Origin: Candidatus Cybelea sp.
GTDB taxonomy: Bacteria; Vulcanimicrobiota; Vulcanimicrobiia; Vulcanimicrobiales; Vulcanimicrobiaceae
DNA length: 37,971 bases
Assembly: GCA_036489315.1 (NCBI GenBank)
Contig: DASXFZ010000018.1
Location: 1 to 37,971, forward strand
Reading direction: 5' to 3'
Below are positions 32,724 to 37,971 of this stretch, piece after piece. Below the pieces are notes generated by a model that had not been told where the DNA came from, made no database searches, and saw only the letters and a list, made by a program, of their open reading frames with translations. The stretch's first letter is position 1. The number at the start of each line of letters is the position of its first letter. Position numbers and translations under genes: made by a program.

Positions 32724-33827
32724 ATGCTCAAGCAGCTGCTATTCCTTCCCGGCCCCGTTACCGTCGCGCAGCCCGTTCTCGAAGCGGCGGCGCGGCCGAT
32801 GATCGACCATCGCGGCCCGCAGTTTGCGGCATTGCTCGAACGCGTGACCGGCGCGCTGCGCCCCGTCTACGGCACGAGCGGCGAAATCGCGGTGCTCGGC
32901 AGCTCTGGAACGGGTGCGATGGAGGCCGCGGTCGTCAACCTGTTCTCGCCCGGAGAACGGCTGCTGTCGTGCCCCGTGGGGGGATTCGGCAAGCGCTTTG
33001 CAGCGATCGCGCAGGGCTACGGCTGCATCGTCGAGACGCTCGTTACGCCGCTGGGATCGGCGCTCGATCCGCAAGCCCTTCGCCGTCGACTCGAAGAAGA
33101 TACCCAGCGAAGCATTGCCGGCGTGCTGCTGACGCATAACGAGACCTCGACCGGAGTTGCGAACGACATGGCGGCGCTCGCGCCGATGCTGCGCGCCCAC
33201 GGCGCGCTGACGCTCGTCGATTCGGTGAGCGGATTGGGCGCCTCGGAGTTCTTGATGGATGCGTGGGGCTATGACGCCGTTGCGACGGCGTCCCAGAAAG
33301 CCTTCGCCGCGCCGCCCGGCATTGCGACGGTTGCCTTGAGCGATCGCGCGCGAACGCGCGTCGCGGATCGGGCCTTGGGCCGCTACTATTTCGATCTGCG
33401 CCTGGCGATGGAGTTCGCCCGCATCGGCCAGACGCCGTGGACGCCACCGATCTCGATTCTCTTCGCGCTCGATGTCGCGCTCGAACGTTACCACGCCGAA
33501 GGGATGCAGGCCGCGTTCGCACGTCACGCCCGCTACGCCCGCAACGTGCGCGCGGGGCTGCAGCGGCTGGGCTTTTCGCTGTTTTCGCAGGCCGGCGCAC
33601 ACTCCGACACGGTTGTTGCGGCCTATCCCCCGGCCGGCGTCGACCCCGCCCTCTTGTTGCGGCAGCTGCGCGAGAAACACGGCGTCGTGCTCTCGGGCGG
33701 TCAGGGAGAGCTGGCGGGAAAAATCATTCGCTTTGGAACGATGGGGGCGGTAAGCGAAGCCGATTTTTCCGCCGCTCTCGATGCGATCGAGTCGACGCTT
33801 GCCGAGCTTACAAGTGGTGTCGCTTGA
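32724..33827 (+). CDS. Class V aminotransferase, alanine/serine--glyoxylate or --pyruvate type
   Basis: This is a PLP-dependent fold type I aminotransferase. The 367-aa product starts LLFLPGPVTVAQPVLEAA and contains DHRGPQF, GSSGTGAMEAAVVN (PLP-phosphate region), THNETSTGV, LVDSVSGLGA with the cofactor-binding Asp, the Schiff-base lysine K192 in TASQKAF, and the C-terminal RFGTMG. These match the AGXT/serine-pyruvate aminotransferase group, not cysteine desulfurases, so direct selenium chemistry with neighbouring SelD is unlikely. The ATG at 32724 fits the family N-terminus. The open frame from 32538 is antisense to selD. The 3' end overlaps convergent cvpA by 20 bp. Confidence 0.87.
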   Translation: MLKQLLFLPGPVTVAQPVLEAAARPMIDHRGPQFAALLERVTGALRPVYGTSGEIAVLGSSGTGAMEAAVVNLFSPGERLLSCPVGGFGKRFAAIAQGYGCIVETLVTPLGSALDPQALRRRLEEDTQRSIAGVLLTHNETSTGVANDMAALAPMLRAHGALTLVDSVSGLGASEFLMDAWGYDAVATASQKAFAAPPGIATVALSDRARTRVADRALGRYYFDLRLAMEFARIGQTPWTPPISILFALDVALERYHAEGMQAAFARHARYARNVRAGLQRLGFSLFSQAGAHSDTVVAAYPPAGVDPALLLRQLREKHGVVLSGGQGELAGKIIRFGTMGAVSEADFSAALDAIESTLAELTSGVA

Positions 33828-34350
33828 AGTACGGCATGAGAAAGGGCCGTGCGAACCAGGGAATCGTCGAAAGGATCGCTGCGTTCACCGTTGGATCGTA
33901 ACTCACGAGATAGGGCGCGAACTTCGACTGGTGCAGATCGGCTCGGATATCGCTCGAGAGCGGAAAGAAGAGCGCGATGAAGAGGATCAGCCAGAGAAGG
34001 ATGGCACCTTTCGCAAAACCGACGAACGCGCCGCCCAACGCGTTCCCAAGGCCGAGAATGGGGAGTTTGGCGATGCCGCCCAACACCCGCGCGATGAAGA
34101 GGACCACGACGTAGGTGAGCAGGCCGGTGCCGAACATGCCGATGACGTGTGCCGAGCCGGGCCCGAGTTTGGTGATCCCCTCGATCTGTGAATCCAAGCT
34201 TCCGTTGTAAAACCAGGGCGTCACGAGCGCAGCCGTCACTGCGACGGCTCCCCCGAGCTCGGCAACGAAGCCTCGCGCATAGCCTTTCCACGTTGCGAAA
34301 GCGAGGACGATGACGATGATGACGTCCGGCCACGCGAAGCCGCCGATCAC
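33808..34350 (-). CDS. cvpA: CvpA family membrane protein
   Basis: The 180-aa product has four predicted membrane segments in the CvpA arrangement. The first begins at PDVIIVIVLAFATWKGYARGF, which contains the conserved W-KGYxRGF turn, and the third and fourth carry GNALGGAFVGFAKGA. CvpA homologues are linked to colicin V production and envelope stress, but the molecular role is unsettled. The GTG at 34350 overlaps the pheT stop (GTGA), so it is the last gene of the pheS-pheT-cvpA operon. In Firmicutes a cvpA gene is often found near pheST with zapA and mutS2, which are absent here. Confidence 0.85.
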   Translation of the reverse strand: MIGGFAWPDVIIVIVLAFATWKGYARGFVAELGGAVAVTAALVTPWFYNGSLDSQIEGITKLGPGSAHVIGMFGTGLLTYVVVLFIARVLGGIAKLPILGLGNALGGAFVGFAKGAILLWLILFIALFFPLSSDIRADLHQSKFAPYLVSYDPTVNAAILSTIPWFARPFLMPYFKRHHL

Positions 34351-36662
34351 GTACGGATCTCGGCTCCGAACTGCGCGCGCATCGCCTTGAGCAGCCGCGC
34401 GATCGCGGCGTCGGCTTCTTCGTCGGTTATCGTCGCGTCGAAACGCTGCAGCGTGACGCGTACCGCAAGGCTCTTGCGTCCCTCGCCGATCTGTGGTCCG
34501 CGATATTCGTCGAAGACCCGGACGTTCGTGCAGATGCTGCGCAGCTCGGTCGAAACGGCCTCTTCGATCGCGCCGGCAGCGACGTCGATGGCGACGATCA
34601 GCGCCAGGTCGCGATAGGTCGACGGATATCTGGAGGGCGGCGAATACGAGGGAGTTTCATAAGGAGGCAGCGCGCGGATGTCGACGATGCACAAGTACGC
34701 ATTCCGGCGGAGATCGTTGCGCTTCGCCACGCGAGGATCGATCTTGCCGAGATAGCCGGCCTCGCGCCCGTGAAGCGAAAGCACGGCCGTCTTGCCGGGA
34801 TGGAAGCCCGCGCGCGCGCCGCGAGTCACGGCGGGGATGCGTCCGGTGACGCGGTGCAGCAATTCTTCGCAATCGCCTTTGAGCCGGAGGAACTCCGAGT
34901 CACGCCACTCCGGCTCCTCGATTGGATCCGCCGAAAAGCCGAAGGCAAGCATCGAGCGTTCGGCGATTGGGTCTTCGTTTGCGAAGGTTTCGCCGATCTC
35001 GAAGATGCGTGCCGGGCTCGCCGCTTCGGCAAAGTACTCCAGCGCGCCGGGGAGCAGGGACTCGCGCAGGAAGCGGTGCTCTTCGGAGAGCGGATTGCGA
35101 ACCTCGACCGTCCCTTCGCTGCGCAGCGACTGCGTGATGATCTCGCGGTATCCCAATCCTTGGAGAACGTCGCCGAGTTGGTTCTCGCGCTCGTACTCCG
35201 CACTGGATATCTCATGCGGTGCAACCGAAGGAACGACCGCCGGAATTTGGTCGTAGCCTTCGATGCGTGCGACTTCTTCGACGAGGTCGGCCGCAATGCT
35301 CAGATCGCGGCGCCAGGGCGGCGGCGTCACGACGAGCGTTCCGCCGTCACGCGCCACGGCACACCCGAGGGAGGTGAGATGGCGTTCGATACGTTCGGCC
35401 GGAATGCGCATGCCCAACAAGCGTTCCACTTCGGCGGCCTGCAGCATAATTTGTGCGGCGTCCCACGCGGAGATGCCGTACGCACGCGGCGCGTGCACGA
35501 TCGCACCGAAGCCTGCCAGCAGCGTTGCCGCGCGTGCGGCCCCGGCGTCGGTCAACGCGAGCGGGAGCGACTTCTCGTGATGTGACGAAGCTTCGGTGCG
35601 CAACGCCAGCTCGCTGCTCATGCGGCGAATGCGCGGGCCGTCAAAGTTCGCGGCCTCCAATACGATGGCGGTTGTCGCCGTGCCGACTTCACTGGAAGCT
35701 CCGCCCATGAGCCCTGCAAGGCAGAGCGGCTGCTTTGCGTCGGCAATAACCAGCGCTTGTGAGTTCAGGGTGCGCGTCACGCCGTCGAGCGTCTCGATCC
35801 GCTCGCCCTCGCGAGCGTCGCGAACGATCAGCGTACCGCCGGCGATTTTCGCCGCGTCGTAGAAATGCAGCGGTTGCCCCGTCTCGAGCATCACGTAGTT
35901 GGAGACGTCGACGACGTTGTTGATCGGTCGCTGCCCCGATAAGGCGAGGCGGATTCGCATCCACGCCGGCGCAATCCCGACGCGCAGCCCGTCGATGCGC
36001 TGGCTGACGAAACGCCGGCAATCTGGCGATTCGAGCGCGACGGATACCTCTTTTCCAGGCGGCTCGGCTGCGCTTCCCGGATTGTCGAATGACGGCAGGC
36101 GGAGCGGAACGCCGTACGAGGCGGCGAGCTCGCGCGCCAAACCGATCACAGACATCGCGTCCGGACGATTCGTCGTTACTTCGACGTCGAGCACGGCCGT
36201 GTCGAGCCCAAAGAATGCGACCGCATCGAGCCCGGGCGCGACGTCGGACTCGAGCTGCATGATGCCGTCTTCGAACCACTCGCCGGGCAGTGCGAGCTCT
36301 TCGGCGGAGATCATCATTCCGGCCGATGCGACGCCGCGCATCGTACGCGGTGCGATCGTCAGCTCGGGAAGGCGCGCCCCGATGGTCGCGACCGCGATCG
36401 TTTGACCGGCGGCCACATTCGTGGCGGCGGTCGCGATCGTCAAAGGCGCGCCGTCGCCAACGTCGACCTGCGCGACCACAAGGCGGTCGGCGTTGGGGTG
36501 CTTGGCGAGGCTCGCGATGCGACCGGCAACGACGCCCGTAATCTTTGGACGCTCGACGATCTCTGCGACCGGGAAGCCGAGCATTGCCAGCCGGTCGGCA
36601 ACCGCCGCGGGGTCGGGCGGCAGCGAGACGAACTCGCGCAGCCAGCTGATTGGAATGCGCAC
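34347..36662 (-). CDS. pheT: Phenylalanine--tRNA ligase, beta subunit
   Basis: PheT is the large subunit of the (alpha-beta)2 phenylalanyl-tRNA synthetase and contributes tRNA binding and editing. The 771-aa product has the expected order: the short N-terminal helix IPISWLREFV, an EMAP-type tRNA-binding domain (about 40-150, LAKHPNADRLVVAQVDVG), the B3/B4 editing domain (about 210-370), B5 (about 400-470), the catalytic-like core, and the C-terminal FDX-ACB anticodon-binding domain (about 680-771, PSRYPSTYRDLALIV). The GTG at 36662 lies two bases after the pheS stop. Length is normal. Confidence 0.95.
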   Translation of the reverse strand: MRIPISWLREFVSLPPDPAAVADRLAMLGFPVAEIVERPKITGVVAGRIASLAKHPNADRLVVAQVDVGDGAPLTIATAATNVAAGQTIAVATIGARLPELTIAPRTMRGVASAGMMISAEELALPGEWFEDGIMQLESDVAPGLDAVAFFGLDTAVLDVEVTTNRPDAMSVIGLARELAASYGVPLRLPSFDNPGSAAEPPGKEVSVALESPDCRRFVSQRIDGLRVGIAPAWMRIRLALSGQRPINNVVDVSNYVMLETGQPLHFYDAAKIAGGTLIVRDAREGERIETLDGVTRTLNSQALVIADAKQPLCLAGLMGGASSEVGTATTAIVLEAANFDGPRIRRMSSELALRTEASSHHEKSLPLALTDAGAARAATLLAGFGAIVHAPRAYGISAWDAAQIMLQAAEVERLLGMRIPAERIERHLTSLGCAVARDGGTLVVTPPPWRRDLSIAADLVEEVARIEGYDQIPAVVPSVAPHEISSAEYERENQLGDVLQGLGYREIITQSLRSEGTVEVRNPLSEEHRFLRESLLPGALEYFAEAASPARIFEIGETFANEDPIAERSMLAFGFSADPIEEPEWRDSEFLRLKGDCEELLHRVTGRIPAVTRGARAGFHPGKTAVLSLHGREAGYLGKIDPRVAKRNDLRRNAYLCIVDIRALPPYETPSYSPPSRYPSTYRDLALIVAIDVAAGAIEEAVSTELRSICTNVRVFDEYRGPQIGEGRKSLAVRVTLQRFDATITDEEADAAIARLLKAMRAQFGAEIRT

Positions 36663-36664
36663 GG

Positions 36665-37708
36665 CTAGTGGCCCAACTGCGTCAGGAACTCAATCTCGCT
36701 CTTGACGAAGCGGCGGATGTCGTCGACCCCGTACCGCGCGAGTCCCAAGCGCTCGACGCCGAAGCCGAACGCCCAGCCCGAATAACGCTCCGGGTCGTAT
36801 CCAACCTCACGAAGAACGTTGGGATGCACCATCCCGGAGCCGCCCAGCTCGATCCAGCCCGAGCCGCCGCACATGTTGCACGGGATCGCGGCCGGCGTCC
36901 CATTGCACTTCGGGCAAGTGGTATCGACCTCGGCGCTCGGTTCGGTGAAGGGAAAATACGACGGCCGAAACCGCACGCGCTGTGCTTGCCCGAAAAGCTC
37001 GCGGCAGAGCCCGGTGAGCATTCCCTTGAGGTGGCCGAAATGAATGCCCTCGGCGACCAGCAGCCCTTCGACCTGATGGAACTGGAAGAGATGGCGCGCG
37101 TCTACCGCGTCGCGCCGAAAGCACTTGCCCGGCGCGACGATCGCGATCGGCGGCGCGTAGCGCTGCATCGTTCGGATCTGCATCGGGGAGGTGTGCGGCC
37201 GGAGCAGCATCTTGTCGCTGAGCCAGAAAGAGTCGAATCCCTCGCGCGCCGGATGATCGGGGGGAATGTTGAGCGCGTCGAAGTTGTAGTAGTCCGGCTC
37301 GACTTCTGGGCCGATGACGACGGCGAATCCGTGACGCACGAAATAGGCGCAGCTCTGCTCGATGATGCGCCGGACGGGGTGGATGGAACCGGCGGGTTGC
37401 GAGATCGCCGGGAAGGTCACGTCGATCGAGGTCGCGAGTTCGCTCTCGAAGCGGCGCTCTTCGAGCCGCTCGCCGGCGGCCCCCAGTGCAAGCTCCATCG
37501 CCGCGACGGCGTCGTTGATGATCATGCCTGCGTCGCGCCGCTGCGGCGGTGCGAGTTTGCCGATGCCGCGCCTCAACAGCGTGACTTCGCCGCTGCGTCC
37601 GAGGTATGCCACACGCACATTTTCGAGCGCTTGCCCGTCGTTGGCAGCCTCGACCGCATCGGCAAAGCGCCGCTGCACGTCTTGAAGTTGATTTTGCAGT
37701 TCCGTCAT
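36665..37708 (-). CDS. pheS: Phenylalanine--tRNA ligase, alpha subunit
   Basis: PheS is the catalytic subunit of phenylalanyl-tRNA synthetase. The 347-aa product has an N-terminal coiled coil (about 1-90), then class II motifs: HPVRRIIEQ (motif 1 region), GPEVEPDYYNFDALNIPPDHPAR, LLRPHTSPMQIR, FHQVEGLLV and the motif 3 segment GWAFGFGVERLGLARYG. A four-cysteine insertion C265-x2-C268-x8-C277-x2-C280 precedes GSGWIELGGSGMVHP and could bind zinc, a feature known in some PheS lineages. The ATG at 37706-37708 has no Shine-Dalgarno; upstream is A/T-rich sequence from the terminator tail. Confidence 0.95.
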   Translation of the reverse strand: MTELQNQLQDVQRRFADAVEAANDGQALENVRVAYLGRSGEVTLLRRGIGKLAPPQRRDAGMIINDAVAAMELALGAAGERLEERRFESELATSIDVTFPAISQPAGSIHPVRRIIEQSCAYFVRHGFAVVIGPEVEPDYYNFDALNIPPDHPAREGFDSFWLSDKMLLRPHTSPMQIRTMQRYAPPIAIVAPGKCFRRDAVDARHLFQFHQVEGLLVAEGIHFGHLKGMLTGLCRELFGQAQRVRFRPSYFPFTEPSAEVDTTCPKCNGTPAAIPCNMCGGSGWIELGGSGMVHPNVLREVGYDPERYSGWAFGFGVERLGLARYGVDDIRRFVKSEIEFLTQLGH

Positions 37709-37715
37709 CGTTTTT

Positions 37716-37754
37716 AAAAAAGGAAAACGCCCGGTCGTTCTTTCTTACCGGGCG
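37716..37754 (-). terminator. Intrinsic terminator, probable attenuator of pheST
   Basis: On the minus strand CGCCCGGT (37747-37754) pairs with ACCGGGCG (37728-37735) around an 11-nt loop, and TTTTCCTTTTTT follows (37727-37716). It ends only seven bases before the pheS ATG, which leaves no room for a separate downstream promoter. A smaller hairpin (GCGGC/GCCGC, 37780-37796) lies upstream. Confidence 0.8.
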
Positions 37755-37805
37755 CTCCGAAAATCGCTTAACGTTCGGTGCGGCGTATCTAGCCGCGGAT
37801 GATTA

Positions 37806-37907
37806 CTACGTTGCCGTCGGCGCCGCGTGGAGCCTTCGGTATGCCAGATAAGCGTCGATCGAACCCGTTTGGGCGAAAAGCCTCCAGAAGAGATTGGACG
37901 TTGCCAT
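37806..37907 (-). CDS. yqzL: YqzL-like microprotein, 33 aa
   Basis: The encoded peptide begins MATSNLFWRLFAQTGSI and continues DAYLAYRRL. It matches the pattern of the YqzL family of tiny proteins (about 45 aa in Bacillus, with a W-x-x-F-x-Q-T-G-x-I-D-x-Y-L core), whose function is not settled. In Bacillus yqzL lies between era and recO. An AAGGAG on the minus strand (37921-37926) lies 13 bases before the ATG, which is rather far. The frame is also open upstream to the window edge, so a longer form is possible. It precedes the terminator upstream of pheS. A role as a translated leader for pheST attenuation is an alternative, but it has only two Phe codons and they are not clustered at the hairpin. 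Confidence 0.6.
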   Translation of the reverse strand: MATSNLFWRLFAQTGSIDAYLAYRRLHAAPTAT

Positions 37908-37926
37908 AGCGCTTTGCAGTCTCCTT

Positions 37927-37971
37927 CTAGCCGTCGGCTCCAGGGCGGCCCTCGTCGCGGAATGGGGTGAG
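37927..37971 (-). CDS. Possible 3' end of an upstream gene (partial)
   Basis: A minus-strand frame enters from the window edge and ends at TAG 37927-37929, reading LTPFRDEGRPGADG. It stops one base before the AAGGAG that precedes the yqzL-like gene, a spacing typical of operon neighbours. Fourteen residues are too few to identify it. Confidence 0.3.
   Translation of the reverse strand, partial: LTPFRDEGRPGADG

Follow-up and report, generated by a model that had tools for sequence, protein, structure and literature searches.

Internal intrinsic terminators can set the expression ratios of genes within operons, and the leader peptide of the Escherichia coli pheST operon contains a run of Phe residues. 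In Bacillota, pheST is already known to be under T-box control. The E. coli pheST attenuator is named in the available part of PMC3526635. The accessible sections of PMC11477304 describe T-boxes of the pheST kind as ending in a terminator and place a T-box before the PheRS alpha gene of C. difficile, and pheST appears among the T-box genes in the available text of PMC7927825. Leader peptides and attenuators are described for Actinobacteria in the accessible portion of PMC1262725. The pheST locus analysed here lies at the end of the window, the whole stretch of 37,971 nt under analysis, and follows the gene order found in Eremiobacterota: spoU, promoter, yqzL, hairpin with U-tract, and pheST. 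The earlier note on this DNA had overlooked the content of the leader, where the conserved small gene yqzL is located ahead of the hairpin.

All features of the locus are on the minus strand. The downstream part comprises pheS (PheRS alpha, 36665–37708, with the ATG at 37708), recognised by PF01409 (E 2e-91) and PF02912; pheT (PheRS beta, 34347–36662), which carries the B3_4, tRNA_synthFbeta, FDX-ACB, B5 and tRNA_bind domains; and a cvpA family gene (33808–34350; PF02674, E 3e-23) that overlaps the end of pheT. The leader contains a Shine-Dalgarno-like sequence of yqzL (AGAAGGAGA, 37920–37928), which is seen again in relatives, and yqzL itself (37806–37907), a 33-codon ORF (MATSNLFWRLFAQTGSIDAYLAYRRLHAAPTAT) assigned by Pfam PF14006 and by the aligned ORF in relatives. 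The yqzL stop is separated from the hairpin by a 49-nt spacer (37757–37805), in which neither a T-box nor a conserved antiterminator was found. The predicted terminator hairpin (37726–37756) is formed by AGCGCCCGGT and ACCGGGCGTT around an 11-nt loop and is supported by sequence, folding and covariation. The U-tract TTTTCCTTTTTT (37716–37727) shares its first two bases with the stem. As judged by sequence, the stop is real and yqzL-terminator-pheST is a conserved unit.

The yqzL promoter lies almost wholly past the end of the window and was read on C58, an overlapping contig of the same genome, of which positions 1–134 are identical to window positions 37838–37971. The window holds only the last two bases (37970–37971) of the putative −10 box (TATACT); the rest of the promoter, GTCAAGACTACC...TGGTATACT, is at C58:133–169, with spoU ahead of it. 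The promoter motif has a single occurrence in the genome and is kept in relatives. Two GTCAAGA boxes, 27 bp apart, are located ahead of the promoter (C58:133–196, upstream of window position 37971). Thirteen of the 18 genomes of the genus have this pair pattern, each with one site that is the yqzL promoter by position or sequence; extra matches to the pattern in five genomes start with GTCAAGC and appear unrelated. The GTCAAGA boxes are possible binding sites of a regulator. Upstream of yqzL in two other loci, L206 and L227, the DnaA box TTATCCACA follows the GTCAAGAC box and precedes the −10 box.

The yqzL ORF matches the Pfam YqzL family at 30.3 bits (cut-off 27, E 5e-7), with no match in an NCBIfam search. 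Eight residues (F7, W8, F11, G15, S16, Y20, Y23 and R24) are identical in 875 of 875 close pairs. Silent sites vary at seven of these eight invariant residues; the eighth is Trp, whose codon has no silent sites. By this pattern of substitution yqzL is under protein-level constraint, which makes predicted translation of the ORF into a functional peptide very likely. An extra RNA constraint within yqzL was considered and rejected: synonymous identity is 0.60 over the first 20 codons and 0.40 over the rest, values that lie within the spread of windows of 20 codons in pheS (mean 0.54, maximum 0.64; 875 pairs). No credible relative of YqzL was found among solved structures (best hit a netrin receptor, E 0.15), and literature searches by family name and by PF14006 found no description of YqzL function among the papers listed; the titles listed for PF14006 concern Plasmodium and other parasites, in which the string probably belongs to a gene name.

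Comparisons with Eremiobacterota relatives showed yqzL ahead of pheS in 38 of 41 loci (L003–L043), the other three being cut by contig ends. Of these, 39 were looked at, with yqzL directly ahead in all except the contig-cut L037; L040 and L041, in which pheS starts at the contig end, are outside the 39-locus count. In the wider set yqzL is upstream of pheS in 113 loci (87 distinct). Eight further loci are outside the 113: L191 has no pheS match, L037, L040 and L041 are cut short, and L138, L019, L185 and L209 were unrecognised by the motif within 900 nt, although L019 does show yqzL. A PF14006 match at E ≤ 1 was obtained in 108 of 118 relatives, 72 of them above the cut-off. In three loci from other classes of the phylum (L103–L105), a tandem pair of yqzL-like ORFs precedes pheS. 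Within the same phylum yqzL is also located ahead of cvpA, RNase PH and LptC/LptA-like genes; the LptC/LptA-like gene follows directly in L108, L114, L119 and L136 from other classes, in L136 by similar sequence. A terminator is present within 110 nt after yqzL in 9 of 16 same-phylum loci without pheS next (0.1 expected). Thus, the stop is as much a feature of yqzL as of pheST.

The stem pairs positions 37756–37747 with 37735–37726 through eight Watson-Crick pairs, one G-U pair and one A-U pair. A GC-rich stem is followed by a U-rich tract, as in an intrinsic terminator, and TTTTCCTTTTTT ends at 37716, seven bases ahead of the pheS ATG, in agreement with the intrinsic terminator with an 8-bp GC-rich hairpin of the earlier note. 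A simple terminator scan does not list the hairpin because it permits loops of only 3–8 nt. A 95-nt segment folds at −32.5 kcal/mol, whereas shuffled versions give −24.9 kcal/mol (z = −2.4), and 7 of 200 of them fold equally well. The folding energy of the whole 263-nt leader is ordinary (z = −0.5), so the significance of the hairpin rests on its conservation. In an alignment of 71 distinct hairpins, 95.7% of cells are paired, and 6 of 10 pairs have changed on both sides; because the hairpins were picked as best stems, which itself favours pairing, the six pairs with two-sided changes are the better evidence. None of 500 shuffles matches the observed values on any measure. A stem with a U-tract satisfying a strict terminator definition is present in 74 of the 87 distinct yqzL-pheS gaps, and most of the other 13 have a stem with a weak U-tract. 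A looser search gave a best hairpin in 84 loci, with L103–L105 left out. The stem pattern occurs at seven places in the genome, one of which is this site, and its reversed control also occurs at seven; a genome-wide hairpin repeat was therefore rejected. The conserved hairpin is a terminator-like element between the promoter and pheS.

The distance from the hairpin to the pheS start has a median of 22 nt over 73 loci, and a strong Shine-Dalgarno sequence for pheS is present in only 14 of the 73. In two loci of the same genus, L216 and L231, the hairpin contains the best pheS start identified, and a good U-tract is missing. A promoter downstream of the hairpin was rejected as a general rule, since a leaderless-type −10 box occurs in 3 of the 73 loci. 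With so short a distance and so few such boxes, pheS transcription needs read-through, as the earlier note had argued from the lack of room for a promoter. No transcript from an upstream promoter can reach pheS without crossing the hairpin, and pheST would be made only when RNA polymerase passes the stop.

The earlier note had also taken the terminator to imply regulated attenuation and proposed a covariation analysis in relatives. That analysis bore out the hairpin, with compensatory changes among the 71 distinct sequences, and yielded no antiterminator. A partner of the hairpin 5' arm was sought in the last 22 yqzL codons (stop included) and in the spacer of 72 loci; the mean z was −0.01, and 4% of the loci reached p ≤ 0.05. 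A consensus fold computed from 12 complete leaders, which extends the search for pairing to the 5' UTR, contains the terminator and weak stems only, with no alternative helix such as the competing antiterminator of the E. coli pheST type. Rfam gave no match at gathering scores; with the limit raised to E 10, the T-box covariance model (RF00230) still gave none, and the one match to any Rfam family was a chance-level microRNA (E 9.7). A degenerate T-box was rejected on the same search, and no T-box stem I with an antiterminator was found in the 49-nt spacer between yqzL and the terminator. No leader peptide with a run of Phe codons is present ahead of pheS: yqzL has two non-adjacent Phe in 33 codons, at codons 7 and 11, beside Trp 8. 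The absence of a T-box and of a Phe-rich leader, already remarked in the earlier note, is thus upheld, and Phe-sensing attenuation of pheST has little direct support.

In a draw of Bacillota genomes, yqzL was matched at E ≤ 0.001 in 100 of 149; among 20 single genomes of mixed phyla, the eight with a match are those of Paenibacillus and Neobacillus, and twelve gave none. The 97 yqzL loci fetched, best-scoring first and eight of them from the mixed-phyla genomes, comprise 49 before pheS, 39 before recO, 5 after spoU for which no pheS was found, 3 of unclear context and 1 without a recognised ORF. In 42 of the 49 loci the yqzL-pheS gap contains a T-box (32 above the gathering score and 10 below it, at E ≤ 1.4e-10). 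All six gaps shorter than 200 nt are without a T-box, and five of them carry a bare terminator; no T-box was found in the long gap of L268. A terminator follows recO-linked yqzL in none of the 14 loci analysed.

On balance we favour, by a modest degree of belief, an internal terminator with fixed read-through that sets pheST below yqzL. One promoter between spoU and yqzL would drive yqzL, the intrinsic terminator and pheS-pheT-cvpA as a single unit, and yqzL would encode a small conserved protein. The hairpin and U-tract would stop most transcripts after yqzL, the read-through fraction would form the pheST mRNA, and the output of PheRS would be kept at a set fraction of that of YqzL. Four points are established at the sequence level: the genes stand in this order, the hairpin is conserved, yqzL is constrained as a coding sequence, and a normal pheS promoter has no room. 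From these we infer termination at the hairpin in vivo and a constant, signal-independent read-through. The same yqzL-bare terminator-pheS layout in five of the six short-gap Bacillota loci argues for the internal terminator, whereas the 13 gaps without a strict terminator, the pheS starts inside the hairpin in L216 and L231 and the recO-linked yqzL genes without a stop argue against it. Some relatives keep the stem with a weak or missing U-tract, which, together with those two pheS starts and the scarcity of strong pheS Shine-Dalgarno sequences, is what would be expected if the hairpin were an RNA end or processing element that caps a cleaved yqzL mRNA or masks the pheS start. However, 74 of the 87 gaps have the U-tract as well as the stem, as does the window itself with TTTTCCTTTTTT, and such a role is very unlikely.

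A less probable account than fixed read-through, which we hold only tentatively, is that a bound protein, tRNA or small RNA raises read-through when PheRS is needed and that no classical antiterminator helix takes part. The hairpin is strongly conserved and covarying, stands before an aminoacyl-tRNA synthetase operon and occupies the position of the T-box of 42 of the 49 Bacillota loci, so that regulation is plausible at this spot here too. However, it has neither a conserved antiterminator partner nor a second conserved structure nor an Rfam family, and the interval from the yqzL stop to the hairpin is about 22–57 nt in most relatives. Ribosome-mediated attenuation, in which stalling at the Phe codons of yqzL as a leader peptide would free an RNA segment blocking the hairpin, draws on Phe 7 and 11 beside Trp 8, on the FFW of many relatives and on the Bacillota copies, in which Phe precedes the conserved Trp in 42 of 49 pheS-linked compared with 6 of 39 recO-linked ORFs (Fisher p 1.7e-11). 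However, all five spoU-linked Bacillota copies for which no downstream pheS was found keep FFW. Nor is Phe more frequent in the 17 ORFs that are not followed by a T-box above the gathering score (2.88 per ORF, compared with 3.38 with one); ten of these 17 ORFs carry weaker T-boxes. The Phe before Trp thus appears to characterise a subfamily and not to reflect sensing. Moreover, conservation is spread along the whole YqzL peptide, unlike in a control peptide, no antiterminator was found, and the Phe codons are more than 100 nt from the hairpin; the leader-peptide reading is improbable. It is equally a long shot that the YqzL protein or its translation sets the read-through of its own downstream terminator, making yqzL-pheST a self-contained control unit in Eremiobacterota and Bacillota. 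If so, the T-box of most Bacillota would be an added or replacing sensor.

The results connect the YqzL small protein family with the PheRS operon of two phyla and suggest that the role of YqzL is linked to translation. A bare terminator can take the place of the T-box, and yqzL-pheST allows fixed read-through and a yet-undescribed sensor for PheRS supply to be tested directly against each other. Compared with the Bacillota yqzL between era and recO (PF14006), the protein belongs to the same small family; however, the recO-linked genes have no terminator afterwards and mostly lack the Phe before Trp. As in the E. coli pheST attenuator, a terminator is located between the promoter and pheS with a short ORF ahead of it, whereas here the ORF is a YqzL-family gene and neither an antiterminator nor an Rfam match was found. 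The T-box leader of Bacillota pheST (RF00230) occupies the same yqzL-pheS gap, whereas the 49-nt spacer here is without one and far shorter than the 219-position T-box model. With the internal intrinsic terminators that set expression ratios, the locus shares a stop that separates two genes of the same unit and, as predicted here, read-through to the second.
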